From the NCBI RefSeq assembly GCF_040438885.1, contig NZ_CP159218.1, forward strand, positions 2,232,001 through 2,296,000: a stretch of DNA of 64,000 nt, in the 5' to 3' direction. This document shows, one piece after another, positions 4,443 to 25,019 of this stretch. The stretch comes from Nakamurella sp. A5-74. Its GTDB lineage: Bacteria > Actinomycetota > Actinomycetes > Mycobacteriales > Nakamurellaceae. The position numbers and the translations under genes were made by a program. Position 1 is the stretch's first letter, and each line of letters begins with the position of its first letter. The notes beneath the pieces were generated by a model. That model ran no database searches and was not told the DNA's origin. It saw nothing but the letters and a program-made list of their open reading frames with translations.

Positions 4443-4677
4443 GGTCTTCCCTTCTGTGCGCCGGATGGATCGGCGCGGATTGTGGAGCAGTGATCGAGCA
4501 CCCATGACAACGCTGCGTCGCCAGGGATTCTTCCGCCCCCGGTGCAACGGCACCAGGACACGGGCACATCGGGGGACACCCCAGTCTAGTCGAAGTCCGT
4601 GGCGATGACGATCGGTGCGTGAGCGTGCCCGTCGAGCACCTCGGCCGGAAACGTGTCCCGCCCGCGCGAAGCCCGGT

Positions 4678-4758
4678 TCAGTCCTCGATGAGCGGGATCG
4701 TGGCGTCTCCCGAGGACGGTCCGAGGTCACCGATCCGGTAGTGCCTGCCGCACAAAAG
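4678..4758 (-). pseudogene. 3' remnant of a native thymidine kinase gene
   Basis: The last 26 codons before the TGA at 4678 read as the C-terminus of thymidine kinase, ending in a near match (HYRIGDLGPSSGDATIP) to the end of the intact kinase at 20059–20694. Similarity stops at about 4758, where an unrelated membrane-protein fragment starts in another frame. The matching 5' remnant lies at 20979–21128 on the same strand. The two pieces together cover only the two ends of the gene; about 155 internal codons are missing from both. Confidence 0.75.
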
Positions 4759-5020
4759 CCACAGGTCATGGTGATCCGGGTGCCCCAGGACTCGCCGTAC
4801 AACTGGACGTCGGCCGTCAACGGGTTCGCCGAGGTCTGGGTCAGCTCGGAGCTGACGGTCGGGCTGTCGCGGTTGGTCAGCACGATCGGCACCACGATCG
4901 CCGCGGCAGCCACCACCGCCGCGGCCACCAGGATCGCCACCCGGCGCCGCACGGTCCGCGGCACCGGCGGCTGGATCAGAAGCCGAATCCGCATCCGGAT
5001 CACCGGCCGGACCAGCAGGT
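4752..5020 (-). pseudogene. Fragment of a membrane anti-sigma-like protein
   Basis: In one frame the minus strand encodes a basic stretch, one hydrophobic helix rich in Ala and Val, and then a Ser/Thr-rich part ending in ESWGTRITMTCGFC. The pattern of SWGT, hydrophobic, TC near the C-terminus is seen in zf-HC2-type anti-sigma proteins, but no zinc-binding HXXXCXXC is present here because the N-terminal half is missing. The frame runs straight into the thymidine kinase remnant. Between 5020 and 5240 another frame reads as protein-like sequence that I do not recognise. I take the region as debris at the island's left junction. Confidence 0.4.
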
Positions 5021-5260
5021 GGCCGTCGCGAGCTGTTGATCCGGGGCGCGATGCTGGCGCTGGCGGCAGCCATCGGCACCGTGCTGGTCGTCTTCCGCGC
5101 CGGTGACGCCGGCGCCCGCGCCGTTGGGGAAGGCGTCGGCGGCCAACAGTCCAGCTTCGGGGCACTGGACGAACTCGACCTGCTGGAGCGACAGGCCATG
5201 GTCATCGCAGGCCGGCCCGTCGGCCGGACCGCGGTTGATGGCGGCCCGGCCGACCGATGG

Positions 5261-6622: not shown

Positions 6623-6796
6623 GGTGTTTGCCTTCCCTAGGGATCGACATGTCCAGGGCGGAAACACATTCGCCGCGATGGCGGATGTCATGTCGGTAGA
6701 GCCGACACGACGAAAAGATCCGTCCTGCCCGGAAATCCAGTGGCTCTTCACGATTAACCGTGGCACCGACGAACCGTCGATCACAGAACAGGCGGC

Positions 6797-7135
6797 TTAC
6801 GTAGTTCTTACCGGCGACTGACTGATGGTCGGTACCGCCGGCTCGCCCCGGCTGGGTTCCTGTTTCAGGATCGCCACGTCCTCGCGCAGCCGCCGGTTCT
6901 CAGCCTTGAGCTTCCGGATCTCTTCCAACTCCTGGGTCGTAACACCTTCGCGGCCAGCAGCATCGACATCTGCCTGAATCACCCACCGGCGCACGGATTC
7001 CTGCCCGACGCCCAACTGCTTCGCCACGGCCGCTGACGCGGCCGTCAACGACGGGTACTGCCCTCGGTGCTCTGTCACCAGACGCACCGCACGAGCACAC
7101 AGCTCCGGATCGAATTGCTTCGGCATGCTGCTCAT
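6797..7135 (-). pseudogene. IS3-family OrfA remnant (helix-turn-helix transposase subunit)
   Basis: The frame encodes the DNA-binding OrfA of an IS3-type element: a MPKQFDPELCARAVRLV start, an HTH with VAKQLGVGQESVRRWV, and a leucine-zipper-like helix ending EEIRKLKAENRRLREDVAILK. After ILK, where intact relatives continue with AxxFFAxELDP and frameshift into OrfB, the sequence changes to unrelated residues and stops. No OrfB with a DDE domain follows. The element is therefore truncated and should be unable to move by itself. Confidence 0.75.
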
Positions 7136-7151
7136 CCCTACAACTCACAAG

Positions 7152-7690
7152 GATGCGGCAGGAAACCTGGGGCGCTTCACCCAGGCCCAGTTCGAGATGT
7201 GGCGAGCCGTCATCGAGAGAACCCGAGTCGAGAGAAGACCTGCCGGTGACTACCTCCTCGCCGGGCGGCTGTACCCGACCTGCGGCGTCAAGTTCCGTGG
7301 GCGCTACGGCATGGTCGAAGACCGGACGACGCACTACGAGTGTCAGGAGCGGACGAACCGCAATGTCCTGGCCGCTGACCGGAAGTGCGTGGACGCCAAC
7401 ATCGTTGCTGCTGAGATCGAGGCCGCCGTCTGGAAGACCGTCCGCGACAGTCTCACCACCCCGGAGATGCTGGCGAACGTGGTGGCGACGAGCAGCGTTG
7501 GCAGTGGGGTCGACGGCATGGAGCAGATCAAGGCGATGAGCGTGCAGATCGAGAAACTGGAACTGGAGCTGGTTCAGGAGTTCCGACAACTGTCGAAGAT
7601 GGGATACAACGCTTCGATCTCCGCCAAGATGCTGTCAGAGAAGAAGGCTGGGCTGGATGCTGCGAAAACCGCTTGCGGTCGGCTCAGGCC
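7152..7690 (+). pseudogene. C-terminal remnant of a large serine recombinase
   Basis: About 180 residues match the recombinase zinc-ribbon and coiled-coil part of large serine integrases: FTQAQFEMWRAVIERTR, then LLAGRLYPTCGVKFRGRYG, a second Cys in HYECQER, then a helix VAAEIEAAVWKTVRD and a coiled coil. The zinc ribbon seems degenerate, because the first CXXC has only one Cys. The catalytic N-terminal domain is absent, as the 5' side begins abruptly beside the IS3 remnant. The frame continues to a stop at 7748 over the 3' end of the convergent SDR gene. This may be a trace of the enzyme that integrated part of the island. Confidence 0.6.
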
Positions 7691-8409
7691 ACGAACGATC
7701 CAAGGAGTTCGTCGAGCCAGGGGTAAAACTGGTCGGCCGGATTGCTGAGCCGAGATTTGAGCTCCCTTGTCGACTCATCGGCTAGCACTTCGATCGCACC
7801 ACTTGTGACGCCTTCGTAGGCCTGGGCGACCACGCTCTTGGCGCTGACCTTCGGCACGTCCCATCGTTGCGACATGGGAGTGTCGACCATGCCTACGAGA
7901 AGGCCGATTACCTGGACACCCCGGCCTTGCAGCTCCGTCCGGAGGGCGTTGGTGGCCGACCACATGGCCGCCTTGGACGCTGCGTACCCGGTGGGAATAT
8001 TGATCCAGGCCGCTGCGGACAGGACGTTGAGGATCGTGCCGCCGCCGTTGGCCATCAGTACGGGGCTGAACGCGTTCGCGACACCGAGCGTCCCGAAGAA
8101 ATTCGTCTCGAAGATGCGCCGAAGATCCTGCTCCGGGCCGGAGATGGAGTCGCCGGCGGGTGCGATGCCGGCGTTGTTGACCAGCAGGTCGACGTCCGGT
8201 GCGGCCGCGGCGGCACGAGCAACGTCGTCGGCATCCGTGATGTCGAGGGACAAGGGCTGGATCCGGGGATCGTCCCAGTGTTGCGGCGTGCGCGCTGCGG
8301 CGTAGACCTTCGCGGCTTCACGGGCGAGCGCCTGGTGCACGAACTCCGCTCCGAGGCCGCCGTTGGCGCCCGTGACGAGAACTGTCCGACCATCGAGTGA
8401 TGCGTTCAT
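7684..8409 (-). CDS. SDR-family oxidoreductase
   Basis: This is a short-chain dehydrogenase of 241 residues with a Rossmann fold, acting in the cytoplasm with NAD(P)H. The cofactor motif TGANGGLG lies at about residues 13–20. LLVNNAGIAP is the structural NNAG motif, and the catalytic Tyr-Lys appears as YAASKAA, with the Ser in SAAAWI upstream. The substrate cannot be inferred. It is divergent from a TetR regulator, and the space between them contains two GGGGAC-type palindromes, so it is very probably the regulator's target. Confidence 0.88.
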   Translation of the reverse strand: MNASLDGRTVLVTGANGGLGAEFVHQALAREAAKVYAAARTPQHWDDPRIQPLSLDITDADDVARAAAAAPDVDLLVNNAGIAPAGDSISGPEQDLRRIFETNFFGTLGVANAFSPVLMANGGGTILNVLSAAAWINIPTGYAASKAAMWSATNALRTELQGRGVQVIGLLVGMVDTPMSQRWDVPKVSAKSVVAQAYEGVTSGAIEVLADESTRELKSRLSNPADQFYPWLDELLGSFVA

Positions 8410-8428
8410 TCCAACCCCTTGCTAAATT

Positions 8429-8467
8429 GGGGACTGTCCCCACAAACAGTATGTAGGGACAGTCCCC
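8429..8467. promoter_or_regulatory. Double palindromic operator between SDR and TetR genes
   Basis: GGGGACTGTCCCC (8429–8441) is a 13-bp palindrome. GGGACAGTCCCC (8456–8467) is nearly the same palindrome again, and the two are also inverted copies of each other about an odd spacer. They lie in the 82-bp space between the divergent SDR and TetR genes, the usual place for an autoregulatory TetR operator bound by two dimers. Confidence 0.75.
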
Positions 8468-8491
8468 ACTTAAGCAAGAAGGGTTGCGATC

Positions 8492-9085
8492 ATGCCTGCC
8501 AAGACCCACACCGTGAGACCGTCTCGACCGATGCGGGCCGACGCCCAGCGCAACCGTGACGCGATCCTTCTCGCCGCGAGAGAGACCTTCGACAGCGACG
8601 GCGTGCTTGCCTCGCTCGACGGAATCGCCCTACGCGCGGGTGTCGGGAACGCCACCCTGTACCGCAATTTTCCGACCCGCGATGACCTTCTTGCCGCCGT
8701 CCTAGAGACCAGCGTCGAGCTAGCGCTCAATGAGGCGGACGGCCTCGCGAGTTCACTGCCACCGCGAGAGGCACTCGCTGAGTGGCTCTTCCGGCTGACC
8801 TGGCAGCTGCGTATTTGGCACGACCTGCCGTACTGCATCGCCACCGCCCGGGCCGATCCCGGATCGTCCATGAATTCGGTTTGCAGCAATCCTCTGCTCG
8901 ATCGGACGGGCGCGCTTCTCGACAGGGCGCAGTCCATGGGAGTCGCTGTCCAGACGATCGCCGCGGACGAAGTGTTCGAGCTGGTCACCGCACTGTCATG
9001 GGGCGTTGACCGGTACGGGGACGACAAGGCGGCCGCCCGCCGTCGCGTCGATGTCGCGACAGCAGGCATCTTCACCTCCAGGTAG
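8492..9085 (+). CDS. TetR-family transcriptional regulator
   Basis: The protein has 197 residues. The N-terminal TetR HTH spans about 17–65: RADAQRNRDAILLAARETF, then SLDGIALRAGVGNATLYRNF, which is a textbook recognition helix. The C-terminal ligand-binding domain is not diagnostic for an inducer. The ATG at 8492 has AGAAGGG upstream. The gene is divergent from the SDR gene and should repress both through the palindromes between them. Confidence 0.9.
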   Translation: MPAKTHTVRPSRPMRADAQRNRDAILLAARETFDSDGVLASLDGIALRAGVGNATLYRNFPTRDDLLAAVLETSVELALNEADGLASSLPPREALAEWLFRLTWQLRIWHDLPYCIATARADPGSSMNSVCSNPLLDRTGALLDRAQSMGVAVQTIAADEVFELVTALSWGVDRYGDDKAAARRRVDVATAGIFTSR

Positions 9086-9189
9086 GTCATCTGCGCCCTT
9101 AGCTAAGGCTCTGTCCGTTTCCGTTGCACCCGCGGTGAGGGTTGGGCGGCGACGCGATGACGCTGTTAGTTGGCTGGGTCGGGGTCTGC

Positions 9190-9276
9190 TGGACCTGAGC
9201 TGCCCCGCGCATGACAGAGGTACGACCACCCATCGTGTGCGCGCGGGAGTTCCTGCCGGCGGCCAGTTCGCGGCCA
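9190..9276 (+). pseudogene. 5' part of a GGQFA-type gene cut by IS256-family insertion
   Basis: The frame upstream of the insertion sequence ends VRAGVPAGGQFAA. PAG-x-GGQFA followed by an HPE-like motif is a recurrent start region of small actinobacterial proteins of unknown role. Removing the insertion element and one copy of the 9-bp target duplication gives GGQFAAIAHPEAGADL, restoring the expected motif across the junction. The upstream limit of the gene is unclear. Confidence 0.5.
9268..9276. repeat. Left 9-bp target-site duplication
   Basis: TCGCGGCCA directly precedes the left inverted repeat of the IS256-family element and is repeated exactly at 10698–10706. Confidence 0.85.
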
Positions 9277-10697
9277 GTTGAGTCCCGCATAGTGGTGTAG
9301 CGCGGCGGCTGGCCCTGGTCCGGGTCTGGACATGGGTGCGGTCACCGCGTGATCCTTCGAGTGAACCTCTCACAGCACTCTCGAATGGAGCATCACGATG
9401 ACCGCACCACACATTGTCGACCCTGCTGGTCTGCTTGGCGAGGCCCTCGCGGAAGCGAGCCCGGACCTGATGCGGAGCCTGTTGCAGGCCACGATCAACG
9501 CGTTGCTGTCCGCGGACGCCGACGCGATCGTGGGCGGCGAGTACGGCCGGCCCACCCCGGGGCCGACCGCGCAACGCAACGGTTACCGCACCCGGGAGCT
9601 GGACACCCGGGTCGGCACGATCGATGTCGCCGTGCCGAAGCTGCGGACCGGCACGTACTTCCCGGAATGGTTGCTGGAGCGCCGCAAACGAGCCGAATCG
9701 GCGCTGATCACGGTCGTCGCGGACTGCTACCTCGCCGGGGTGTCGACCCGCCGGATGGACAAACTCGTCAAGACGTTAGGCATCAACTCCTTGTCGAAGT
9801 CGCAGGTGTCCAGGATGGCCGCCGACCTCGATGAGCACGTGGAGCAGTTCCGGCACCGCTCGTTGGCCGATTCCGGTCCGTTCACGTTCGTCGCCGCCGA
9901 TGCGTTGACGATGAAGGTCCGTGAGGGCGGCCGGGTGGTGAACGCGGTCGTGCTGATCGCGACCGGCGTGAACAACGACGGCCGCCGCGAAGTGTTGGGG
10001 CTGCGGGTCGCGACCAGCGAAACAGGGCCGGCATGGAACACGTTCTTCGCCGACCTCGTCGCCCGCAAACTCACCGGCGTGAAACTCGTGACCTCCGACG
10101 CCCATTCGGGGTTGAAGGACGCGATCGCCGCGAACCTGCCCGGCGCGGCGTGGCAACGTTGCCGCACCCACTACGCCGCGAACCTGATGTCCGTGACCCC
10201 GAAAAGCATGTGGCCGGCCGTGAAAGCGATGCTGCACAGCGTCTATGACCAACCCGACGCACAGGCTGTCACCGCGCAGTTCGACCGGCTCATCGACTAC
10301 GTCACCGACCGGCTGCCCGCAGTGAGTGAACACCTCACCGCGGCGCAACACGAGATCCTGGCCTTCACCGGCTTCCCCGAAGGGCTGTGGCAGCAGATCT
10401 GGTCGAACAACCCGAACGAGCGACTGAACCGGGAGATCCGCCGCCGCACCGACAGTGTCGGGATCTTCCCCAACCGCGAAGCCATCGTTCGCCTCGTCGG
10501 CGCCGTCCTAGCCGAACAGACCGACGAATGGGCCGAAGGACGCCGCTACCTCGGCCTCGACATCCTCGCCAAGTCCCGCCTCCACCTCATCACCGCCACC
10601 GAACCCGACAACCACCAGGAGACCGACCTGCCCGCACTCACCGCCTGAACACCAACGAAGAATCACGCACCGCTACACCACCACCAGGGGCTTGACC
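9277..10697 (+). mobile_element. Complete IS256-family insertion sequence (about 1.42 kb)
   Basis: The left terminal repeat (9277–9302) and right terminal repeat (10671–10696) are imperfect inverted repeats. They share the inner 11-mer GTGGTGTAGCG and match at 19 of 26 positions. The element is bounded by identical 9-bp target duplications, TCGCGGCCA, as expected for IS256-family transposition (8–9 bp). It carries one intact transposase gene. The target is a small GGQFA-motif gene. An exact duplication and an intact gene suggest a recent insertion. Confidence 0.88.
9398..10648 (+). CDS. IS256-family transposase
   Basis: This 416-residue mutator-type transposase (Transposase_mut) catalyses copy-out movement of the element. 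The DDE residues can be traced: the first Asp in FVAADALTMKVREGG, the second in TSDAHSGLKDAI, and the Glu in NPNERLNREIRRRTD. The CRTHYAANL segment after the second Asp corresponds to the family's C/H-containing region. The length is normal and there is no frameshift, so the enzyme is probably active. Confidence 0.95.
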   Translation: MTAPHIVDPAGLLGEALAEASPDLMRSLLQATINALLSADADAIVGGEYGRPTPGPTAQRNGYRTRELDTRVGTIDVAVPKLRTGTYFPEWLLERRKRAESALITVVADCYLAGVSTRRMDKLVKTLGINSLSKSQVSRMAADLDEHVEQFRHRSLADSGPFTFVAADALTMKVREGGRVVNAVVLIATGVNNDGRREVLGLRVATSETGPAWNTFFADLVARKLTGVKLVTSDAHSGLKDAIAANLPGAAWQRCRTHYAANLMSVTPKSMWPAVKAMLHSVYDQPDAQAVTAQFDRLIDYVTDRLPAVSEHLTAAQHEILAFTGFPEGLWQQIWSNNPNERLNREIRRRTDSVGIFPNREAIVRLVGAVLAEQTDEWAEGRRYLGLDILAKSRLHLITATEPDNHQETDLPALTA

Positions 10698-10706
10698 TCG
10701 CGGCCA
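10698..10706. repeat. Right 9-bp target-site duplication
   Basis: TCGCGGCCA follows the right end of the IS256-family element and is identical to 9268–9276. Confidence 0.85.
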
Positions 10707-11091
10707 TCGCCCATCCGGAGGCCGGGGCCGATCTGAACGGTTCGAGAACGGCTGGGTGCCGCTGAAGGACCACACGCCGGAAGATCTGGCACACACGATC
10801 ACCCTGGAGATGGCGCAGGTCCACGGCCGCGACTCGCATGCGGCGGACACCGTCGAAAGCGCGATCCTGCTCGCCTGGCACGCCCACGACGGGCCAGCGC
10901 TGGGCGACGCGGCTGGCGACAACCCCGGCGAGATCGAGCTGCTGGAGCGCCGCACCAGCGTCGGTGGACGCCTGTCCCTGGTTGATGGTTTCAGCGAGGG
11001 ATCCCTACCCGAGACGGGCGATTGGAACCAGCGCAGCTGGAGACATGCCGCGGAGCTCGACTCAGGACTTCATGCCAAACTGCAGCTATAG
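10707..11091 (+). pseudogene. 3' part of the GGQFA-type gene, truncated and frame-disrupted
   Basis: Right of the insertion the reading continues IAHPEAGADLNGS and then meets a stop near 10763. From 10756 another frame encodes DHTPEDLAHTITLEMAQVHG and an acidic helical stretch rich in Ala, Asp and Glu up to about 10987. From 10988 the frame crosses the first 28-bp palindrome, and the remaining residues look like read-through. I take this as the remains of one or two small genes interrupted first by a site-specific junction and later by the insertion sequence. Confidence 0.4.
10988..11015 (+). repeat. 28-bp palindromic site S1
   Basis: The left half is GTTTCAGCGAGGGA and the right half is TCCCTACCCGAGAC, whose complement reads GTCTCGGGTAGGGA. 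The site is therefore an imperfect 28-bp palindrome with central dinucleotide AT. It is the leftmost of five related sites in the island and truncates the small gene upstream of it. Confidence 0.7.
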
Positions 11092-11165
11092 CAGGTGACG
11101 TTCGACGGTTCGGGCAGTGCGCCATCCTCGTCGCGCTTCTCCGATACTCGGGCCCAAGGCTCAAG

Positions 11166-11765
11166 TTAAGGATGGCGAGTTCTCTGGGGTGACATCTTCA
11201 GTTCCCTGCGCGGGTTCGCTACGTGGTTCACGGCGATGCTAAGCGCGGCGCCCGCGGCCGATCCCAGGCTGTTGAGTATCAGATCGTCGATGTCCGGTGC
11301 TCCCACGCCCAGCGCGAGCTGCAGCGTCTCCATCACTGCAGACAGAAGCACTCCCGCCAAGAGGCCGCGCCACCAGGTTCCGCCCGCAGCCACGGGAGCA
11401 AACAACCCCAGGGGCAGGTACATCACAATGTTCCCAATGACATTCAGAAGTCCCAGTTCACGGTTCCCGTTCTCGAGCTCGCCGACGATCCCGCGCATCG
11501 GGATCAGATTGGGAGTCGTGGAGTACCCGGACCCGCGCATCAGTGAAATCCAGACGATCGCCGCGACGGTACCGATCAGGAAAACTGCTGCTGCCACCCG
11601 CACTCCGACCTGCCGACCATGTCGAAGACCACGGGCCACCCCTGCAATCGAGCCCGCCGCACACGTCAGGCAAGCTAGCCAGATCAGCGCTCCCCAATCG
11701 GCGTAGGCGCTCATCAAGGCCCCTGTCGTGTCCGAAATTGACCCCGGACCCGGCGACGTTGACAT
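11166..11765 (-). CDS. VanZ-like membrane protein
   Basis: The protein has up to 199 residues and about five hydrophobic helices. The family features are visible: NLIPMRGI after the second helix, GNIVMYLPLG, and the E-x-x-Q motif in SAVMETLQLALG followed by PDIDDLILNSLG. VanZ-family proteins are integral membrane proteins linked to teicoplanin resistance in some operons, but most have no known role. The start could be the ATG at 11765 or the one at 11714 (MSAYADWG), which is the usual position before the first helix. The gene stands alone between sites S1 and S2. Confidence 0.82.
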   Translation of the reverse strand: MSTSPGPGSISDTTGALMSAYADWGALIWLACLTCAAGSIAGVARGLRHGRQVGVRVAAAVFLIGTVAAIVWISLMRGSGYSTTPNLIPMRGIVGELENGNRELGLLNVIGNIVMYLPLGLFAPVAAGGTWWRGLLAGVLLSAVMETLQLALGVGAPDIDDLILNSLGSAAGAALSIAVNHVANPRRELKMSPQRTRHP

Positions 11766-12357
11766 CAGCCGGGTTCGGCCGAACAGCTTGCGGCGGATGG
11801 CCAGCTCGCTCGCAGCGCGCTGTCTGCAGATGGGACGCCAACCGTAACCATCCTCCGGCCGACCGGGCGATGCGACTCGCGCAAGGCCTCTTGCCCAGCC
11901 ACAGACAACCGGCGAGTGAAGCTACCCGCCTGGCCTCCGTTGATGACCGCCCCGAGCCTGCTGACGTCGCGACTACCCGTACAGGTTCACTGCGCCTCGG
12001 ACGACGGGTACGCGTCAGACGGCAAACGCACCAGCTGCCCCCTCAGTGTTCGACCCGGCCCCAGGTGGTCTCATCAGACGATCCCTACCCGAGGCTGTCG
12101 GTTGAACGGGCACGCCCCGTGACCGTTGCCTGGGTGGGCCCACCGGCGTCGTGACAAGGTTGGCCGAAACCGGCTGCAGGCCATCCCTGAGTGCGGACAA
12201 TAGTTCCGTCATGTGGCGGTCCTATGTAATTGTTTGAGTCACTCGAACGTGTCGTTGAGAAGAATTCTCAGCTGATTGCTAGGCGTTTGGGTGTGATCAT
12301 GGTCTCCTGTGGGTGAGCGGGGCGTCGGGTTCAGCTCATCTACTGGGGGGTTTCTGG
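11766..12357. other. Gene-free 590-bp stretch containing site S2
   Basis: I see no convincing coding sequence here on either strand. Frames that stay open have Arg/Pro-rich compositions typical of non-coding high-GC DNA. The 28-bp site S2 lies at 12068–12095. The last 120 bases before the Rhs gene are richer in A+T (for example AATTGTTTGAGTC) and probably hold its promoter. Confidence 0.5.
12068..12095 (+). repeat. 28-bp palindromic site S2
   Basis: The left half is GTCTCATCAGACGA and the right half is TCCCTACCCGAGGC, one base different from the right halves of S1 and S3. The centre is AT and the orientation is the same as S1 and S3. It lies about 260 bp upstream of the Rhs gene start. Confidence 0.7.
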
Positions 12358-15300
12358 ATGTCGCTTCGCCGGGTTCGCGCGCGCCTTCTGATCAGTGTTG
12401 TGGCGGTGTCGAGTCTCGGGGTCAGCATGATCCAGATCGATGCTGCGGCAGCACCTTTCACCGTTTCGTCTCCCGCGGTGGGGGTGCAGGCAGCACCGTC
12501 GGATGAGGGTGTGTGGGATCCGTCGGAGCCGACGGCGCCGCCGTGGACGACGGGCACGTCGAATCAGTCGCCGTCGACGCCTGCGGCGCGGTCCGCTGTG
12601 GTGGAAGCCCCCGCGGGTAATGGTGATGAGGTGGTGTCGCTGCGGACTGCGACGTCGAACACCTATGCCGAGGGGGATCGGCTCCGCACCGAGATCTCGC
12701 CGGTACCGGTGAACTTCAAGGACGCCGGGGGTGCATGGCAGCCCGTCGATGAGGCACTGGTCCCGGTCGGTGGCGTCGCGGGCCGCGGGGTCACCCCGAG
12801 CCTGACGAACGCCGCCGATGCGCATGATGTGGTGCTGCCGCCGACCGCTGGTCTGCCGGTGAGCGTGGTCAAGGGCGCTTTGACCGTCACCTCGCAGCTG
12901 GCGGGTGCGGTTCCGGTCACGGTGTCCGCCGAGGATGACACTGCTGTGTATCGGGGCGTGTTCCCCGGTGTGGATCAGGTGTACGTGTCCCGCTCGGGCG
13001 CTCTGGAGCAGTACTTCCGCCTGTCGGGCAAGGATGCTCGCTCGACGTTCACCCAGTCCCTGACGCTGCCGGCCGGGTACACCCTGGCCGCGGTCGAAGG
13101 CGGTTCCGCTGAGATCCGCGGCGCCGCCGGTGCAGTGGCCGCGATCATTCCGGCGCCGGCGGTGTTCGACGGCTCCAAGGACCCGATCAACTCGTTCTCC
13201 ACGGATGCCGTCAAGCTGCAGATCACCGGTGCCGCACCGACCTGGACCGTGACGACCGTCGTCGACCCGACGTGGTTGCAGGATGCCAAGCGGGTGTTCC
13301 CGGTGCTGGTGGATCCGACGGTCAGTGTCGGCCTGTCCGGTGCGGTGGGCTGCTATGTGTCCGCGGCTTCCACCGGTTCCCGTACGTGTTCGACGAGCAC
13401 GTCTTCGGACCTGCCGTTGACGTACGGCTCCACAGACGCTGCGCGGCGGATCTTCCTGAAGTTCCCCGAGCTGGGCTCGGCGTCTTCGCCGATCCCGGTC
13501 GATGCGCAGATCTCCCGGGCTGATCTGACGATGACGGTGCGGAACGCGACGAACAGCACCCCGATCCCGACGAATGTGAACCAGGTCGCCGGGACGTGGG
13601 ATCAGAGCACGGTCAGCTGGACCAATCAGCCGGCGATCACCACCCCCATTACCCGGCCGGTGGTAACCCCATCCGGGACGATGACGTTCTCGCTGGTCCC
13701 GGTGGTGCAGAAGTGGACGTCCGGCCAGTTGAACTCCTCGAACGCCCCGACCCCGGTTGCGAACAACGGCATCCGCATCGCGGCGACCAGCGAATCGCCC
13801 GCGTCGAACACGATCAGCTTCTACGGTCTGGCCAGCCCGGACCGGCCGACGTTGACGGTGGAGTGGCTGCCCCGGGTTGGGCAGCAGAAGGCCGTTGGCA
13901 TGTACGACCACCGGTTGTCGGACCGGATGGACATGCATGTGTCCTACGGCACCCGCAACCTCGTGATCAATGGCACCGACGTGTCCTGGAAGTCGCCGGG
14001 TATGGCGATGTCGGTGCGACGCACCTACAACAGTCTCCTTGCGAAGAACGGCGTTGCCGGGGCGTTCGGGTTGGGTTGGTCGATGAACGGCGGCTTCGAC
14101 GTCCGACTGGACCTCAGCGGTTCCGGCGCTACGTTCATGCAGCCCGGCGGTGCGCGGGTCTTCTTCCGCCGCAACCCCGACTATCCCCTTCCCACCACCG
14201 CCGGCGCCTACGTCGCGACCGAGAACGGTTTGGACGCGGACCTGGTGCAGAAGACCGGGACCCCGACGCAGTACGAGATGACTTTCCACAAAAGCAAGGT
14301 CGTGTACCTGTTCACCGTGGACCCGGCGCAGCCGAGTACCGCATACCTGTCGCGGATGTTCGACCGGGCCAACGGCAATGCCGTCGAGAACAACACCGCC
14401 ACCTGGGGTGCTCCGGATCGGGTGCCGTCTTCGATCGTGGACACCACCGGTCAGCGGTCGGTGTCCTTCACCAACGTCGATTCGACGCAGGGCCGGGTCA
14501 CCGCCATCGCCGAGAACCTCGCTTACGGCGCGTCGGGTGCCCGTACCTACGGCTACGCCTACGACACCGACAAGCACCTCACCACGTTCACTGACCCGGC
14601 GGGGAAGGTCACCCGCTTCTGCTACACCGGTGACCTGATCACCCGCATCATCACCCCCCGCGGGTCTGATGCCGGCGTCGTCTGTGCCACCACCGGGTCC
14701 AGTGCCAGCAACACCACGGACATCGCCTACGACACCGGCGGCAAGGTCACCACCGTGACCTACCGCAACGGGGCCTCCCCGGCGATCACGGTCGCGTTCG
14801 CGCAGACCAGCACCCTGGACACCACCCCGAACGGCAACAAGGCGATCACCACGTTCACCGACCCGTACGGCACCCCTACCGAGTACACCTATGACGCCCG
14901 CGACCGGGTCATCCAGACCCGCCTCAACCGTGACGGCCTGGAAGTCATCTCCAAGACGGCCTTCAACACCAACGGTGACGTCACCTCCTCCACCTCCCCG
15001 GTCAACGCCGCCACTACCGGCGACGGCTCCGCAACCACCAACACCTACGACCCGATCGGCAACAACCTCACCGGGTCAGCCACACCCACCGGTGCGTCGG
15101 TGGCGTTGGAGTACAACGATCCGCAGCAGGGCTACCAGCCCTCTGCGATCAGCGACGACCGGGACAGCGGCGTCACCGGGCAAGCCAAGACCACCATCGA
15201 CTACGGCGACGGCGGCACGATCAGCTCCACCAGCAAGGGCAGCCGCACCCTGCGGTCCTACTACCAGGGAGACTCAGGCATCGCGAACTGCGGCCCGAGC

Positions 15301-17202
15301 GGAACCGCGGCCTACCCGAAGGCGCTCTGCGAGGAACGCGACGGGGAATACGGCAGCACCGCGAGCACCCAGCACCGCACCCTGTATCGCTACAACTCCC
15401 TGGGTGAGCTCGTCACGGTGGTTCCGCCGGTCCCGGCGAACGGTCGCGCCACCCAGGCGAACCGCACATTCACCTACGACGGGTTCTCCCGGACGAAGAC
15501 GTCCACGAATTCGCGCGGTCAGACCACCAGCTTCGACTACGACGCGATGGATCGCCTGACCCGGCAGACCTACGCCGGCGGCAGCTACACCGAGTTTGCT
15601 TACGACCCCGACGGCAACCTGCTCTCCCGTACCGACAAGAACAGCAGCGGCACCGTCACTGCGAGCCAGACCAACGGCTACGACGCTCTCAACCGACAGA
15701 CCTCCGAGAAGCCTGACAACGGGAACACCAACACCGTCACCTGGGATGCGAACTCACGGATGGCGACGTTCACCGATGATTCGGGGACCACCACCTACGG
15801 GTATCGGTGGGACGGTGCGCTCACGAGCATCACCCAGCCCGGGGGTAACTGCATCAACTTCAACATCATCAACCGGCCCACCCAGGGTTCCAACTGCATC
15901 CTGTTGCAGGTGGACTACTCCGGACAGCGCCTCACCGAGATGTACCCCGGAGGCATCCAGCTGCGCCGCGAACGGGACAAGTCCGCCCGCGTCGCCCGCA
16001 TGATCGGCACCATCAAGGATCCCAGCAGCTCCACCACCGATGTGGTGATGGACCAGCTCTACAAGTACGACACCGCCACCAAGGCCGATACCTCCCGCAT
16101 GACAAGCCGCATCGACACCGTCAACAACCGCAACACCACCTACGACTACACCAGCGAAGGCTGGCTCAAGACGGTGTTCAACACCGTCCAGTCCACCGGA
16201 GCCACCGCCGGCAAGAACACCTTCTGCTACGACAACAACGGCAACCGCACCTTCTTCTCCACCAGCACCGCCGCCACCGTCTCCTGCGGCACCAACTCCA
16301 CGTGGGACGGCGCCAACCAGCAACTCACCGGACCCACCGGGACCGCCGCCGACTACACCTTCGACGACGACGGCAACGAAACCGCATCCGGCACCTCACT
16401 CGCCGGCGCACTCACCCGCACCAGCGGATGGGGAGACCGCGGCCAGAACACCAGCAACACCCTCGGCACCGGAACCACCCTGCTCAACACCTACATCGGA
16501 TCCGGCAACGCCAGCCCCCGCTCCAAGACCATCAGCAGCACCGACACGCAATCCTTCCGGGTGTCGATGCTTGGGATCACTGAAGTCAGCAATTCAGCCG
16601 GTCAGAAAACGTTCGTCCAGCGGGACCCGTCGGGCATGATCCTGGGCTTCACCACCCAAAGCGGCGAGCACTACTACCCCATGTACGACAACCTCGGCTC
16701 CATCTGGCGGGTCTACCGCTTCGACCGCACCACCGCCCAAGTCGTCAGCCTCTACCAGCCCTGGGGACAGCCCACCACCAGCCAAGCGCCCACGTTCCTG
16801 CAGCCCTTCGGCTACACCGGCGCCTACACCAACCCCACCACCGGACTCGTCCACCTCCAGAACCGCTACTACGACCCCACGCTTGGCCGATTCACCCAAA
16901 CCGACCCATCCGGGCAAGAAGACAACCCGTACACCTACACCGACAACGATCCCATCAATCGCACTGATCCCAATGGGTTGGATTGGTTCGAGGCAGCAGC
17001 CATCGGTATCGTGGCCGGACTCGTTGGCATTGCAACCGGTGGGCTCGCGCTGGGAGCGGCGGCAGTCGTCACGGCCGTGGACGTAGGTGCTGCCGCTGTG
17101 GTCGGCGGTGGCGCAGCCGTTGGCGCGGGAGGAGTTACTGCCGCAGTGATCGATGGCGGTCAAGATGATTGGGAGCAGCCAGCCGCGGACTACTACAGCT
17201 GA
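12358..17202 (+). CDS. Secreted Rhs/YD-repeat protein (polymorphic-toxin type)
   Basis: The protein has 1,614 residues from the ATG at 12358, which follows a GGGGGG ribosome site and opens a signal peptide (MSLRRVRARLLISVVAV, AAAAPF). Next is a beta-rich region with a DNRLRE-type domain (YGSTDAARRIFLKF, GTWDQSTVSWTNQP). From about residue 560 it has the Rhs shell start (SVRRTYNSLLAKNGVAGAFGLGWS), followed by many YD repeats (YDPDGNLLSRTD and similar). The Rhs core-associated end is NRYYDPTLGRFTQTDP, then INRTDPNGL. Such shells enclose a C-terminal effector. Here only about 72 residues follow DPNGL: a Gly/Ala-rich hydrophobic stretch ending EQPAADYYS. No nuclease or deaminase motif is visible, so the effector is missing, very small, or membrane-active. 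A hairpin terminator follows. Confidence 0.93.
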   Translation: MSLRRVRARLLISVVAVSSLGVSMIQIDAAAAPFTVSSPAVGVQAAPSDEGVWDPSEPTAPPWTTGTSNQSPSTPAARSAVVEAPAGNGDEVVSLRTATSNTYAEGDRLRTEISPVPVNFKDAGGAWQPVDEALVPVGGVAGRGVTPSLTNAADAHDVVLPPTAGLPVSVVKGALTVTSQLAGAVPVTVSAEDDTAVYRGVFPGVDQVYVSRSGALEQYFRLSGKDARSTFTQSLTLPAGYTLAAVEGGSAEIRGAAGAVAAIIPAPAVFDGSKDPINSFSTDAVKLQITGAAPTWTVTTVVDPTWLQDAKRVFPVLVDPTVSVGLSGAVGCYVSAASTGSRTCSTSTSSDLPLTYGSTDAARRIFLKFPELGSASSPIPVDAQISRADLTMTVRNATNSTPIPTNVNQVAGTWDQSTVSWTNQPAITTPITRPVVTPSGTMTFSLVPVVQKWTSGQLNSSNAPTPVANNGIRIAATSESPASNTISFYGLASPDRPTLTVEWLPRVGQQKAVGMYDHRLSDRMDMHVSYGTRNLVINGTDVSWKSPGMAMSVRRTYNSLLAKNGVAGAFGLGWSMNGGFDVRLDLSGSGATFMQPGGARVFFRRNPDYPLPTTAGAYVATENGLDADLVQKTGTPTQYEMTFHKSKVVYLFTVDPAQPSTAYLSRMFDRANGNAVENNTATWGAPDRVPSSIVDTTGQRSVSFTNVDSTQGRVTAIAENLAYGASGARTYGYAYDTDKHLTTFTDPAGKVTRFCYTGDLITRIITPRGSDAGVVCATTGSSASNTTDIAYDTGGKVTTVTYRNGASPAITVAFAQTSTLDTTPNGNKAITTFTDPYGTPTEYTYDARDRVIQTRLNRDGLEVISKTAFNTNGDVTSSTSPVNAATTGDGSATTNTYDPIGNNLTGSATPTGASVALEYNDPQQGYQPSAISDDRDSGVTGQAKTTIDYGDGGTISSTSKGSRTLRSYYQGDSGIANCGPSGTAAYPKALCEERDGEYGSTASTQHRTLYRYNSLGELVTVVPPVPANGRATQANRTFTYDGFSRTKTSTNSRGQTTSFDYDAMDRLTRQTYAGGSYTEFAYDPDGNLLSRTDKNSSGTVTASQTNGYDALNRQTSEKPDNGNTNTVTWDANSRMATFTDDSGTTTYGYRWDGALTSITQPGGNCINFNIINRPTQGSNCILLQVDYSGQRLTEMYPGGIQLRRERDKSARVARMIGTIKDPSSSTTDVVMDQLYKYDTATKADTSRMTSRIDTVNNRNTTYDYTSEGWLKTVFNTVQSTGATAGKNTFCYDNNGNRTFFSTSTAATVSCGTNSTWDGANQQLTGPTGTAADYTFDDDGNETASGTSLAGALTRTSGWGDRGQNTSNTLGTGTTLLNTYIGSGNASPRSKTISSTDTQSFRVSMLGITEVSNSAGQKTFVQRDPSGMILGFTTQSGEHYYPMYDNLGSIWRVYRFDRTTAQVVSLYQPWGQPTTSQAPTFLQPFGYTGAYTNPTTGLVHLQNRYYDPTLGRFTQTDPSGQEDNPYTYTDNDPINRTDPNGLDWFEAAAIGIVAGLVGIATGGLALGAAAVVTAVDVGAAAVVGGGAAVGAGGVTAAVIDGGQDDWEQPAADYYS

Positions 17203-17219
17203 CGGAGCGCGTCTGATTC

Positions 17220-17258
17220 GATGGCCGCCACTGCCTCGACCGGTGCTTGGCGGCCATC
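17220..17258 (+). terminator. Hairpin terminator after the Rhs gene
   Basis: GATGGCCGCCA and TGGCGGCCATC form a perfect 11-bp stem with a 17-base loop, starting 17 bases after the Rhs stop codon. Confidence 0.7.
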
Positions 17259-17352
17259 GATGAGGCCGCCCATTCAGAATCAAGGTGGCATACTTAGGCT
17301 CGATTAGTCCACATGAGACGGATCGCCCTCCTAGAGATGAGATACTGAAGCG

Positions 17353-17556
17353 ATGACAGATGCAAGCGAGCAGCGACTACACCGCAACGCGGGGCGCCGG
17401 AGCGTAATCATCGGTCTCGTCGTTGCAGTGTTGGGAGCCGCCTTCTTAATCTTTGGTTCCGCTCGGCTAGTGTGGGTGGGATGGATCCCTCTTGTATTGG
17501 GACTATCGGGTGCGGTGTTTGGAGCCCTGAACTATCGAAGGTATGGATCGGGATGA
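17353..17556 (+). CDS. Small two-helix membrane protein downstream of Rhs
   Basis: The predicted protein has 67 residues: a polar, basic N-terminus (MTDASEQRLHRNAGRRS), one hydrophobic helix (about 19–36), a short turn with RLVW, a second helix (about 42–58), and a short basic tail. The local G+C is lower than in the flanking core genes. Its position directly behind an Rhs gene is where immunity genes are found, and a membrane immunity protein would match a hydrophobic effector tail, but this is only inference from location. A GAGATGAGATAC stretch upstream gives a weak ribosome site. Confidence 0.6.
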   Translation: MTDASEQRLHRNAGRRSVIIGLVVAVLGAAFLIFGSARLVWVGWIPLVLGLSGAVFGALNYRRYGSG

Positions 17557-17628
17557 GTCAGCGGTGATGGATCAACGAAGCACAGCGTTCGAAGCCAACG
17601 TGTGCGACTGCCATTGTGAGCTAATCGT

Positions 17629-17976
17629 ATGTCCTCCGTGTTGAGCGTAGGCATCCAACGAATTGGTCGACTATTACTACCTTGCCTATTTTGGAATGGC
17701 GCCGGGAAAGTAGTTCGCAAGGTTCACGTTAAGCCGTCGGATTCGGCTGGTTACGTCGTTGTCGGCAGGGTCCAGCAAGGGTTTGTCACTGGCCGCACTC
17801 TCGAGCGGTGGGTATTAGTAGTCGCCGAGGGTGAGTTTTGCCATTATGTAGCAGTAGACAGCGCCGTGTGGGCCGAAGTAGAACAAGGGCAGCAGATAAC
17901 CGCGGATTCCCCCTTGTTTGCCGATTTTGGACGCGATATGTTCAAGAACCCTCCCACTCGAGCCCGCCTTTTCTAG
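17629..17976 (+). CDS. Hypothetical small protein (possible DUF7489-like)
   Basis: The predicted protein has 115 residues. After a short hydrophobic start (IGRLLLPCLFW) it has a beta-rich domain: KVVRKVHVKPSDSAGYVVVGRV, then RWVLVVAEGEFCHYVAVDSAVWAEVEQGQQI, then a polar tail. The arrangement of a strand pair followed by VAVDSAVW, a turn, and G-x-x-I resembles small actinobacterial proteins of the DUF7489 type, but I am not certain. It sits in the A+T-richer tail of the Rhs segment, and codon use is less GC-biased than in core genes. There is no clear ribosome site, so the exact start is doubtful. Confidence 0.5.
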   Translation: MSSVLSVGIQRIGRLLLPCLFWNGAGKVVRKVHVKPSDSAGYVVVGRVQQGFVTGRTLERWVLVVAEGEFCHYVAVDSAVWAEVEQGQQITADSPLFADFGRDMFKNPPTRARLF

Positions 17977-18087
17977 GTTGTTTAATTGATGAACGATAGG
18001 TTCCGACGACGGTTGGCGGCTTGCCCGTCTATACACCGCGATTTACCACGCCTTTTCATCGCAATCCGGGGATTGGTGGCATGCCCA

Positions 18088-18117
18088 GGGAGTGGGCACC
18101 GGATCGTGCCCACTCCC
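18088..18117. terminator. Strong stem-loop in gene-free region
   Basis: GGGAGTGGGCAC and GTGCCCACTCCC form a perfect 12-bp stem around a 6-base loop (CGGATC). It lies 112 bp behind the 115-residue small gene and may end its transcript. There is no T-tract on either side. Confidence 0.55.
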
Positions 18118-18398
18118 CGAGCGGGTCTAGCCGTTCTCGGTGACGGTGGTGTTGGGATGGCGTGCTGCTGTTGCTCTGGTGACGAATTTGCCGCTGATGG
18201 CGGAGCGTCCCGGTGCTGTTTTTGCCACCGCGTTCGGTGACGGTGGTGCGCGGGTGACGGGCGGCGGTCGCGTTCGTGACGTGCTGACCGGTGATTGGCA
18301 CTGCGTGCGTGACCTCGTGAACTGCTACGTGCCATGGGGACCTTCAGGTCCGTTATCGAGGTGCCGGTGGCCTTTCGGTCATCTTCCCGTGTTGGAGC

Positions 18399-18426
18399 GT
18401 CTCAGCAGACGATCCCTACCCGAGAC
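18399..18426 (+). repeat. 28-bp palindromic site S3
   Basis: The left half is GTCTCAGCAGACGA and the right half is TCCCTACCCGAGAC. The centre is AT. The right half is identical to that of S1, and the left half differs from S2 at one base. It separates the Rhs segment from the cluster of small membrane genes. Confidence 0.72.
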
Positions 18427-18772
18427 GATGCCGTCGTAGCTCTGCCTCGGCCGCAGGCATCGCCCTTGTTACGGTCCGTCCACGGAGGGAGCGCTAGTTC
18501 CAGTGCTGGAAGATCCTGACTGTGTCGTTCGGTCACCTTGATGCCTCGCTGAACCAACGTGATGACCCCTGACGGGCGGCGTTGACCTTCCGCCGCTCGA
18601 CCTCGATCTTTACCGGAATCGGAGTGGCAATGCCACCCGATCGTGTACCACTGCAGACCTCGTGCTCGCCCCCCGCCACCGGCGCCAACCTGTGTGTTCT
18701 ACTGGGGTCCATCAGAGGCGCAGTTGGCCCAAATTTGACCTCGAAACACCTACGACCAGGAGGAATGCCAAC

Positions 18773-18925
18773 GTGTCATCCACACTTGCCGTCGTGTTCA
18801 TGGCGGAGACTAAGGGCTTCTCGGTCACTGGCCTCCCCGCGATCTTGATCATTCTAGCCATCATCGCGATCTTCGTCGGCATCGGCGTGTTTATTGGCAG
18901 AAGGGCGAAGCGTCGGAAGGGCTGA
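18773..18925 (+). CDS. Single-pass small membrane protein (50 aa)
   Basis: A GTG at 18773 follows AGGAGGAATGCCAAC, an excellent ribosome site, and opens a 50-codon frame. After about 20 residues (MAETKGFSVTG) comes one long hydrophobic helix (LPAILIILAIIAIFVGIGVFI), then a strongly basic tail GRRAKRRKG. This predicts an inner-membrane helix with its C-terminus in the cytoplasm. It is the first of three very small membrane genes between sites S3 and S4. I do not recognise the family. Confidence 0.6.
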   Translation: MSSTLAVVFMAETKGFSVTGLPAILIILAIIAIFVGIGVFIGRRAKRRKG

Positions 18926-19001
18926 CTCAACCCGCTAGCGATACGTCCTGCATTCAAATCCGCAGCCGCGAGCTACTCCGCTGCACCGAGAAGGGCCCGG
19001 C

Positions 19002-19274
19002 ATGATTCTCGAGCTGTTGGCGGTCCGTTCGAGTGGCGGAGGTGACGGAAACGGCTCCCCGTGGCTAGTTTTCATCGTCGCACCGCTGTTCATTATTCTG
19101 GGAATAGCACTTGCGATCAAGCCAGAACTCCAATGGAAGATGAACCGCTGGGCCTATAAAAACCCTAAAGCGATGGAACCTAGTGCCAAAGGTCTTGTTG
19201 TGACCAGGGTATCGGGAGCAGGCATGGTTATCGTTGCCACTATCGCGATCATCGTCGCCGCGACCCAAGGGTGA
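19002..19274 (+). CDS. Small two-helix membrane protein (DUF6199-like)
   Basis: The protein has 90 residues: a Gly-rich polar start, a helix (WLVFIVAPLFIILGIALAI), a polar hairpin KPELQWKMNRWAYKNPKAME, PSAKGLVVTRVSGAG, and a second helix (MVIVATIAIIVAATQ). The KPEL-W-x-x-x-RW-x-YKNP-x-A-x-EPS arrangement matches small proteins annotated DUF6199 in actinobacteria and firmicutes, whose role is unknown. AGAAGGG precedes the ATG. It follows the 50-residue membrane gene by 76 bases. Confidence 0.7.
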   Translation: MILELLAVRSSGGGDGNGSPWLVFIVAPLFIILGIALAIKPELQWKMNRWAYKNPKAMEPSAKGLVVTRVSGAGMVIVATIAIIVAATQG

Positions 19275-19382
19275 CCCGCAACGTGTACTGGTTCCCACGC
19301 AGTCGTTGCATCTCGGCCGTGGTCGTCGTTTGACTCACTGGCAGAGCTCATCAAACAACACACTCCAAACGGAAGGTTTCGC

Positions 19383-19514
19383 ATGAACGAACTTCTGAGT
19401 TATGCAGCTGCACCGCGGACTGCGGTCAGCTTTCCGGTGTGGCTGATCTTCCTCGCAGTTTTCATCGTTATTGTGGTTCTGGTTCTCCTGCGATGGCGCA
19501 AGAAGATGAAATAA
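19383..19514 (+). CDS. Single-pass microprotein (43 aa)
   Basis: The ATG at 19383 follows GGAAGGTTTCGC, a good ribosome site. The 43 codons encode MNELLSYAAAPRTAVSFPVW, one hydrophobic helix (LIFLAVFIVIVVLVLL) and the basic end RWRKKMK before TAA. The layout of one helix and a basic cytoplasmic tail is like that of the 50-residue protein upstream, suggesting related membrane-active microproteins. No family is recognised. Confidence 0.55.
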   Translation: MNELLSYAAAPRTAVSFPVWLIFLAVFIVIVVLVLLRWRKKMK

Positions 19515-19629
19515 CGGTCATGGTTCCGCCCGTCTTCATAGTGTGCAGGTCGTTATTCGTTTTGTGCGAAAGGTCAGCGGCCGGCGGTGCCGCTCCGCAG
19601 AACACGTCGACCTGAGCTGGATCGAGACA

Positions 19630-19657
19630 GTCTCAACTGACGTTCCCTCGCCGAGAC
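19630..19657 (+). repeat. 28-bp palindromic site S4
   Basis: The left half is GTCTCAACTGACGT and the right half is TCCCTCGCCGAGAC, with centre TT. It is more diverged than S1–S3 but has the same length, GTCTC/GAGAC ends and orientation. A further lone half-site, GTCTCAG, is at 19702. Confidence 0.6.
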
Positions 19658-19726
19658 CGCGCCGGGCCAACAGCGACGCTGGCGAGCCCCTGATCAGCGC
19701 AGTCTCAGATGAGTGGTCCGGGGCTT

Positions 19727-19754
19727 GTCTCAGTGAGGGGTGCCTATCTGAGAC
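19727..19754 (+). repeat. 28-bp palindromic site S5
   Basis: The left half is GTCTCAGTGAGGGG and the right half is TGCCTATCTGAGAC. It is the most symmetrical copy at its ends (GTCTCAG/CTGAGAC), with centre GT. It overlaps the 3' end of the resolvase remnant. S4, the half-site at 19702 and S5 together span about 125 bp, similar in extent to a three-subsite res locus. Confidence 0.65.
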
Positions 19755-20050
19755 GGGTCGTCAGGGGCGGGGAGTGCTGGTCGAGGTGGCGATAGATGGT
19801 GGGTCGGGTGACGGAGAAGTCGGCTGCGATCTGGGTGACGGTATGGTGGCGCCGGCCTCTTCCTCGATCTGGCCGTAGATTGTCTGGCCATTCGAGTCTG
19901 CCGGGCGCCGAGCTTGGGTTTCTGGCCGCCGGTGGTGCCGCGTGCTCGGGCGGTCGCGTGGCCATCTCGGGTGCAGCCCGTGTGATGAGCGGGGGAGTGC
20001 GGGTCGAGCGGATCTGCGTGTGCGCGGGGTTGGTTCTCTGACGGTGAAGA
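19755..20050 (-). pseudogene. Frameshifted C-terminal remnant of a serine resolvase/invertase
   Basis: Read across two or three frames, the minus strand gives RARGTTGGQKPKLGARQ, then IYGQIEEEAG, then HTVTQIAADFSVTRPTIYRHL. This is the linker and Hin-type helix-turn-helix of a small serine recombinase. The catalytic N-terminal domain is absent, because the thymidine kinase stop codon lies immediately upstream at 20059. Its 3' end runs into the 28-bp site S5. As it stands it can produce no active enzyme. Confidence 0.7.
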
Positions 20051-20058
20051 GGTGGGTG

Positions 20059-20694
20059 TCAGGTGTCGATGAGGGGGATGGTGGCGTCTCCTGAGGATGG
20101 TCCGAGGTCGCCGGTGCGGTAGTGCTGTCGGCACAGCACCTGGTAGTGCACCTGCGTCGTTCCGGCGGCTGTGACTGTGTCGGCCACGACGACCTGTTCA
20201 CCTGCCCTGGCGACCTGTCCGTCGATGATGCGGGAGTTGAACCGGCCGGGGCGGCCGCACCAGCAGAGCACCTCGACTTGCAGGGGTGTTGCTTCGTCGG
20301 CGAGTTCGAACAGGCGTCGGGATCCGGGGAACATGCGGCCGAGGAAGTCGGTGGCGATGCCGAAGGCGTAGACGTCGATCTGGGTGTCGTCGACGAGTTG
20401 GGCCATCTGTTCGATCTGTTGCTCGGTGAAGAACTGGGCTTCGTCGACGATCAGGTAGTCCACGCGTGTCCCGTCGGCCCATGACTGCCGGACGAGGTCT
20501 CCCAGGTTGGTGCCTTCCGCGACCTCGACTGCTGCTTTGGTGACCCCGATGCGGGAGCTGATGCGCGGCTCGTGGGATCGGTCCATCTTGGTGAGCAGTA
20601 GACCGTGTTGTCCTCGGCGTGATCTGTTGTAGTCCAGTTGGAGCGCAAGAAGTGACTTGCCGCAGTCCATCGGGCCGTAGAAGAACTTGAGCAT
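20059..20694 (-). CDS. tdk: Thymidine kinase, type II (island-borne, intact)
   Basis: This enzyme phosphorylates thymidine with ATP in the pyrimidine salvage pathway. The ATG at 20694 follows CCGGAGGG and gives 211 residues, normal for type II enzymes; a longer frame begins at 20763. The P-loop is GPMDCGKS at residues 7–14. The Walker B/catalytic motif is DEAQFF, and the zinc Cys pairs are CWCG and CRQHY. The lasso-type C-terminal half is complete. Compared with the chromosomal remnants at 4678–4758 and 20979–21128, the protein is near identical but many codons differ synonymously, so this is a diverged copy and not a recent duplication. It probably compensates for loss of the native gene. 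Confidence 0.92.
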   Translation of the reverse strand: MLKFFYGPMDCGKSLLALQLDYNRSRRGQHGLLLTKMDRSHEPRISSRIGVTKAAVEVAEGTNLGDLVRQSWADGTRVDYLIVDEAQFFTEQQIEQMAQLVDDTQIDVYAFGIATDFLGRMFPGSRRLFELADEATPLQVEVLCWCGRPGRFNSRIIDGQVARAGEQVVVADTVTAAGTTQVHYQVLCRQHYRTGDLGPSSGDATIPLIDT

Positions 20695-21892: not shown

Positions 21893-21933
21893 CGGGTGAG
21901 TCTTTCACTTCTCCGACCCCGCGAGGTCCTACG

Positions 21934-25007: not shown

Positions 25008-25019
25008 TATGCTGCTGCG

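Follow-up and report, generated by a model that had tools for sequence, protein, structure and literature searches.

The 64,000-nt window analysed here, a stretch of the Nakamurella sp. A5-74 genome (NZ_CP159218.1, positions 2,232,001 to 2,296,000; its own numbering is used below), probably contains a decayed, integron-like cassette array that was built on a small serine resolvase, a reading to which we assign a probability of about 0.64. The structure appears real and well defined, and its organization points to a new use, or a variant, of resolvase and res sites; from this organization we infer that recombination at the sites built the array, which enzyme did so, and that segments moved. In the proposed mechanism, binding of a GYARCSTDEQDLTAQR-type resolvase to the GTCTC ends of each site would be followed by a cut at the 2-bp centre and by rejoining of the half-sites, and the segment between two sites could then leave as a circle, enter, or flip. 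The array is probably idle in this genome, because the cognate enzyme, a GYARCSTDEQDLTAQR-type resolvase, was not found in it.

The sequence-only reading had proposed one array of five co-oriented 28-bp sites, and all five were found at the starts it gave, on the forward strand at 10988..11015 (S1), 12068..12095 (S2), 18399..18426 (S3), 19630..19657 (S4) and 19727..19754 (S5). The sequence TCCCTACCCGAGAC is indeed common to S1, S2 and S3, with one mismatch in S2, and the ends vary slightly (GTTTC at one end of S1, GAGGC at one end of S2). The analysis confirmed that the five 28-mers are real and not products of chance, but that they have different roles: S1 to S3 have the centre AT, S4 has the centre TT, and S5 lacks a GATC-type core, so that the five are not equivalent. 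A matrix made from the genome's own sites, in which conservation is highest in the outer five bases and at the centre, finds exactly S1 to S5 in the 64 kb, compared to 0.2 matches per shuffled window (5 shuffles), with four of the five window sites belonging to its training set.

Across the 4.75-Mb genome, the pattern GTCTC-N18-GAGAC has 18 matches and its backwards control has none. Thirteen of the 18 matches fall in four clusters, contrary to a random scatter; the remaining five, which are scattered, are taken as chance. An asymmetric version of the pattern, allowing up to 3 mismatches, has 12 matches in the genome (control 0), all of them on the forward strand, with 11 inside the arrays called A, B and W (the window) and one elsewhere. 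The shared orientation that had been described therefore holds, within A, B and W, for the 11 sites that have a direction, and does not extend to those array sites that are made of two like halves and have no direction. Moreover, the mean pairwise identity among 18 sites is 0.64, as against 0.28 and 0.30 in their 30-bp flanks and 0.28 in random stretches (S5-type sites and D_11307 were excluded from this set, and D_10017 entered it 2 bp off). The likeness between sites thus ends at 28 bp. Hairpin terminators and transposon ends were considered as identities for the sites and rejected without a dedicated test.

Instead of the single array first described, the genome has three arrays of solo sites, each preceding a platform (in A, B and W), and a fourth platform in cluster D. 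The S4/S5 pairs lie 97 bp apart in the window, 96 bp apart in A (86283/86379) and 97 bp apart in B (1772499/1772596); in D, where the platform is accompanied by one or two more sites, both weak at best, it is on the other strand, with S5 at 3889920 and a weaker S4 95 bp away. A fifth platform occurs in the congener G014, a sister species (L042, 9972/10069, 97 bp), so that the S4-S5 spacing is 95-97 bp across all five. A small serine recombinase gene of the GYARCSTDEQDLTAQR type begins 50 bp after the G014 platform; it is truncated and runs into an rve-type transposase.

The regions upstream of GYARCSTDEQDLTAQR-type resolvase genes looked unrelated when judged by counts of GTCTC ends; aligning a selection of them gave a common layout. 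In particular, the five platforms were aligned with 15 foreign upstream regions, and site I and the accessory half-sites h1, h2 and h3 are in register in most of them, in the order of a 28-bp site at the place of S4, h1, h2, h3 and then the gene. Seven of these regions came from a scan of 296 genomes of the class and eight from plasmids of named actinobacteria, the latter being 8 of the 40 matches listed among at least 5,000 matching records. The aligned set is a selection: 18 loci were examined, 11 upstream regions were viewed, and four loci (L046, L052, L053 and L058) were excluded, three of which had no such motif by eye. With h1 as the anchor, which was picked from the same alignment, the 28-mer located 72 bp before h1 has, averaged over 14 foreign loci, 6.8 of 14 palindromic pairs (6.7 once one of each of two near-duplicate pairs is removed), compared to 3.7 over offsets from -130 to -30. 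Seven of these 14 loci are longer stretches selected by searching for a motif; that search covered 14 stretches, 6 of them had no res candidate, and the candidate L126 was set aside; L108 was omitted because it has no anchor. Site I lies 72 bp before h1 in W and B and in 11 of the 14 foreign loci (at least 5 of 14 palindromic pairs), and A, D and G014 deviate from this distance by 1-2 bp; the res layout is not matched by L109 or L112 and is weakly matched by L127.

Because most of the 15 foreign upstream regions align in register and palindromy 72 bp before h1 exceeds the mean over the offsets, S4 is, on this comparative evidence, the predicted site I of a res site, and h1 and S5 are its predicted accessory half-sites. 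In the window, h1 is the half-site GTCTCAGATGAG at 19702..19713 of the forward strand, and S5, which begins 25 bp after h1, comprises h2 and h3. S4 and S5 are accordingly not further cassette sites, as had been supposed, but together with the half-site at 19702 form one res platform. As in a res site, site I and the accessory half-sites stand at a fixed spacing; a resolvase gene adjoining res is missing here, as no GYARCSTDEQDLTAQR-type gene was found anywhere in the genome.

The remaining sites were scored with a matrix whose 14 training sequences were all copies of site I from outside the genus; positions at which one half scored below -2 were excluded. In the window, S1 ranks 2nd, S3 5th and S2 14th of 63,973 positions; the top match lies inside the rhs gene, non-sites hold other ranks, and S4 is outside the top 14. 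Within the 35,973 positions of the array A stretch, site 27512 ranks 1st, S4 (28283) 4th, 21310 5th, 3784 6th, 15570 7th, 26638 11th and 23145 13th; 13812, which had been overlooked earlier, ranks next after 27512, and 24679 is outside the top 14. In array B, 17682 ranks 1st, S4 (20499) 4th and 11616 7th of 29,973 positions, with 13904 outside the top 14. A second, family matrix, which combined the foreign sites with S4 of W and the G014 site and whose thresholds were set by the analyst, finds exactly S1 to S4 in the window and nothing in 3 shuffles; it also has one match each in 2 of 17 control stretches (L098 and L102) and single matches elsewhere in the foreign stretches L110, L114, L125 and L126. 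Taken together, these scores indicate that S1 to S3 are solo copies of site I, each at a segment boundary, and by the analyst's count there are 15 candidate solo sites across the genome beside four S4 sites. The proposal of crossover sites in a cassette array thus gains independent foreign site data, and it loses ground on the roles of S4 and S5 and on the subfamily of the adjoining enzyme.

The two halves of the sites tend to differ. When positions 6-13 of 34 half-sites from 17 sites were clustered, each of three methods gave two classes, with 15 of 17 left halves in one class and 13 of 17 right halves in the other (14 of 17 with complete linkage); these positions and sites were chosen after a two-way cut of all 14 positions of 22 sites had failed to separate left from right halves, and the choice dropped A 13812, A 24679, two sites of G016 and one of G005. 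By likeness to two consensus halves chosen by the analyst, the 22 sites comprise 12 L|R, 6 L|L, 2 R|R and 2 unclear ones; in the window, S1 is R|R, and S2 and S3 are L|R. Two neighbouring sites of array A, the L|L site 26638 and the R|R site 27512 that follows it, show the pattern that one inverted cassette would leave. The centre is AT in the solo sites, TT in the S4 sites of this genome and AT in the S4 site of G014. An AT centre is self-complementary and allows either direction of joining. Since the centres differ (TT versus AT), S4 should not recombine with the solo sites if simple base pairing governs the exchange. No cassette was seen in two places with different neighbours.

In the window, segment 1 carries a VanZ-like protein (11166..11765, reverse strand; Pfam VanZ, E 1.5e-19). 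Segment 2 carries, all on the forward strand, a 1629-aa RHS-repeat protein (12313..17202; Pfam RHS_repeat and DUF6531) and two small ORFs without a Pfam match, one of 67 aa that looks membrane-like by eye (17353..17556) and one of 115 aa (17629..17976). Segment 3 carries three small forward-strand ORFs, namely one that looks membrane-like by eye, has an uncertain start and has no Pfam match (18662..18925), a DUF6199 protein (19002..19274; Pfam E 3.5e-13) and a 43-aa ORF read by eye (19383..19514). The window array therefore has genes on both strands, and some of its segments have several genes.

In arrays A, B and D, the genes were called by the analyst's own ORF picker. The region 21310-28283 of array A has five consecutive segments with one gene or operon each. 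The first encodes a 485-aa protein that has no Pfam match; in the second, a sigma factor is paired with a protein of 304 aa, and in the third, a sigma-like protein with one of 406 aa; the fourth encodes a mycothiol-S-transferase/DinB protein, and the fifth a protein of 193 aa whose DUF3040 match is sub-threshold. Elsewhere in A, and throughout B, the segments have several ORFs each, which include GNAT, HAD and DUF4037 genes and what the analyst read as transposases; cluster D has a methyltransferase gene. A sigma factor gene followed by a Pfam-less gene whose product, judged by eye, looks membrane-anchored recurs in two array A segments (L017, 6145-9638), and the same kind of pair is found beside the G014 platform (L042, 10129-11449) and in G016 (L093, 6086-7431).

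The window array lies in an island of about 15.6 kb (4460..20059, edges approximate) between a conserved gene block and tk. The block (1-4484) and tk (20059-20763) are neighbours in relatives, of which nine loci were compared. The gap between them is about 0.1-0.7 kb in five of the nine (G007, G008, G001, G006 and G004) and larger in three others, at 2.1 kb in G005, 2.8 kb in G014 and 3.7 kb in G016, the last two gaps holding other ORFs; in G015, the left block has no match. No sites of this kind were found in the nine relatives' stretches. From the close spacing of the flanks, it follows that the eight relatives with both flanks lack the block with the array at this place. Within the genus, the window array's DNA is matched only in patches (for example, by a 65-66% identical rhs in G008), and no cassette was seen whose neighbours had been swapped; matches to the DNA beyond platform A are likewise only patchy, and no empty site could be read there.

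Several repeats accompany the island. Positions 4685-4754, near its far end, are a 70-bp copy of the 3′ end of tk, and 20986-21130 is a partial second copy of the start of tk; the island may have come with, or caused, these two copies. Further downstream, an element at about 25491-27111 has a 90% copy at 3,442,120, and its short ends (about 30-45 bp) recur widely in the genome, some in tight groups.

In the suggested search of related genomes for the site, multiple copies are, among the genomes sampled, nearly confined to the genus, and only singletons appear elsewhere. The GTCTC form with at most 1 mismatch occurs in 4 of 17 genus genomes (11 sites in the present genome, 2 in G016, 1 in G014 and 1 in G005). 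Outside the genus, singletons occur in 4 of 395 genomes in a scan of 396 genomes of the phylum and in 12 of 380 in a scan of 397 genomes of the order; a rough estimate of chance matches is about the same size as these counts, and some of the singletons may be real. The backwards control of the order scan has no match outside the genus and one in G014, and is unfair in that the reversed pattern has a CTAG core. CTAG is rare in genomes of this kind. An exact pattern scan of the genome collection has no match to the platform linker. The same kind of scan for the site returned three isolated stretches (L043, L044 and L045), all attributed to chance with the possible exception of L043, a contig from the Microbacteriaceae; its site, at 1371-1398, looks good but is single and may itself be chance. 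A single stretch among the viral contigs, packed with short GTCTCA repeats, was judged unrelated. Within the genus, G016 has two good and two weak sites among TIR, sigma and NUDIX genes (L093, 2170-15415), possibly a decayed array in a second species.

Each of the 14 foreign res loci was also scanned with its own site I, and 11 had no second match at 20 of 28 positions. The second matches in L129 (20 of 28) and L127 (21 of 28) were judged to be chance, neither being an AT-centred palindrome; shuffles gave one match each in 2 of 4 for L127 and none for L129. In L116 (20 of 28), an AT-centred palindromic site lies 1.3 kb before its res, with APH-like and GNAT genes between; in L117, the res is preceded at 2.3 kb by a palindromic AT site, and a gene for a pyridine nucleotide-disulphide oxidoreductase lies between the two. 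These two possible solo sites are leads, not proof. In L126, the stop of a GNAT gene overlaps a possible solo site. A stretch of Variovorax PBS-H4 plasmid 2 (L035, 2486-4485) was rejected as a parallel array, its repeats being of another kind; in it, a 76-bp element recurs near a resolvase gene, and small ORFs separate its copies.

The broken resolvase noted at S5 is present, but it belongs to another subfamily than the platform's. Its HTH remnant (19744..19965, reverse strand) overlaps S5 with its last codons, and its nearest relative in the genome is an intact 219-aa resolvase at 4,500,859, to which two pieces of the remnant are 77% identical over 31 aa (E 5e-13) and 59% identical over 27 aa (E 8e-8). 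The remnant's DNA matches plasmid recombinase genes (best E 4e-12), and Pfam gives only a sub-threshold ArsR-type HTH. Altogether, the genome has four resolvase-domain matches, in three places, all of the non-GYARCSTDEQDLTAQR subfamily, and broken copies lie at 2,813 kb and at the far end of array A, the latter ending at site 3784; pieces of these two are 88-92% identical to the intact gene. Beside S5 of array A, there is a weak match (E 0.008 to a Variovorax relative, 0.05 to the genome's own gene), and in B and D, BLAST finds no resolvase remnant in the right place. Seven plasmid stretches with resolvase genes of the remnant's subfamily have no clear site of this kind beside the gene; four weak matches occur in two of them (L036 and L041).

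This second resolvase could nonetheless be the enzyme of the array, with the intact copy at 4,500,859 acting in trans. A remnant of its type abuts S5 in W (clearly) and in A (weakly), a broken copy ends at site 3784 of A, and one 219-aa copy is intact; yet genes of this type, in this genome and in several plasmid copies, carry a different res upstream, with TGTAACG-like and ACGATCGTT-like motifs by eye, and the platform layout matches the GYARCSTDEQDLTAQR type, to whose compared members the intact protein is only 38-42% identical. We consider the trans explanation improbable. Tyrosine recombinase modules of the Xer/dif type, like the pdif modules of Acinetobacter, would share the modular look and the site length (PMC6449649, in the part available), but the sequences to which the platform aligns lie upstream of serine resolvase genes. 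Further, the strong conservation of the outer five bases and of the centre in the present sites fits a serine resolvase site better, and the Xer/dif explanation has very little probability. The same small weight falls on regulator operators or chance palindromes: GTCTC-ended palindromes could bind a regulator and scattered matches exist, and against this stand the clustering, the single direction, the 95-97 bp spacing of S4 and S5 and the ranks under the foreign matrix.

The explanation that the solo sites are scars, left by repeated landings of res-bearing transposons that then decayed, with segments that never were cassettes, is unlikely, though less so than those above. It accords with a Mutator-type transposase to the left of S1 (by Pfam), with IS21-type and IS256-type transposases in A and B (by ORF reading), and with L116, where a resolvase of the GYARCSTDEQDLTAQR type has a transposase and an ATPase for neighbours (Pfam Mu-transpos_C, rve and AAA_22), as it does by likeness in L117. 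Against it, the sites have no homology past 28 bp; the 11 directional sites of A, B and W share one direction; and array A at 21310-28283 has one gene or operon per segment, with no transposase recognised in the seven proteins scanned. The cassette array reading meets objections of its own. Besides the missing enzyme and the mismatch of centres between S4 and the solo sites, wild-type resolvases, according to the accessible portion of PMC2764113, use regulatory sites, and mutants are needed for bypass at site I; this need counts against cassette movement at solo sites. A stronger form of that reading, in which the locus would be a natural serine-recombinase counterpart of an integron, with the res site acting as platform, solo copies of site I marking the cassette ends, and the AT centre, being non-polar, letting cassettes leave, enter or flip, is put forward tentatively, as a possibility with about half the weight of the array reading itself.

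Site I of Tn3, gamma-delta and Sin is 28 bp long. The platform resembles the res sites of these systems, so far as the available text of PMC9943657 and PMC2764113 describes them, in having a crossover site I followed by accessory binding sites, and the direct repeat of h1 and h2 is like the half-sites of Sin site II in the same partial sources. Unlike those systems, the present genome has extra solo copies of site I with an AT centre and has no resolvase gene of the same type beside the platform. Among the papers listed by literature searches, covering mostly titles and abstract openings, no serine-resolvase cassette array was seen, either in general or for Nakamurella.

The pdif modules use 28-bp sites that alternate in direction. 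Here, such alternation is not seen: 12 of 12 asymmetric matches are on the forward strand, with D on the other strand. We know of no res-like platform in pdif modules. The likeness to them lies in adaptive genes flanked by short recombination sites (PMC6449649, as far as its available part goes); the difference is that an Xer system, with XerC and XerD binding arms, acts there, whereas here A, B and W have their directional sites in a single orientation. The locus resembles integrons, as partly described in PMC3053210, in that its platform stands next to a series of segments delimited by recombination sites. In contrast, integrons have an IntI tyrosine integrase beside the array and palindromic attC sites that fold as single strands, whereas the present sites are of the serine resolvase type and the genes lie on both strands. 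To our knowledge, the known gene-capture arrays, both integrons and pdif modules, all rest on tyrosine recombinases. If the serine-resolvase version is true, this mode of gene collection would have arisen more than once, and it would raise the question of how an enzyme class that depends on regulatory sites acts on solo crossover sites, for which four platforms and 15 candidate solo sites in one genome provide material for comparison.
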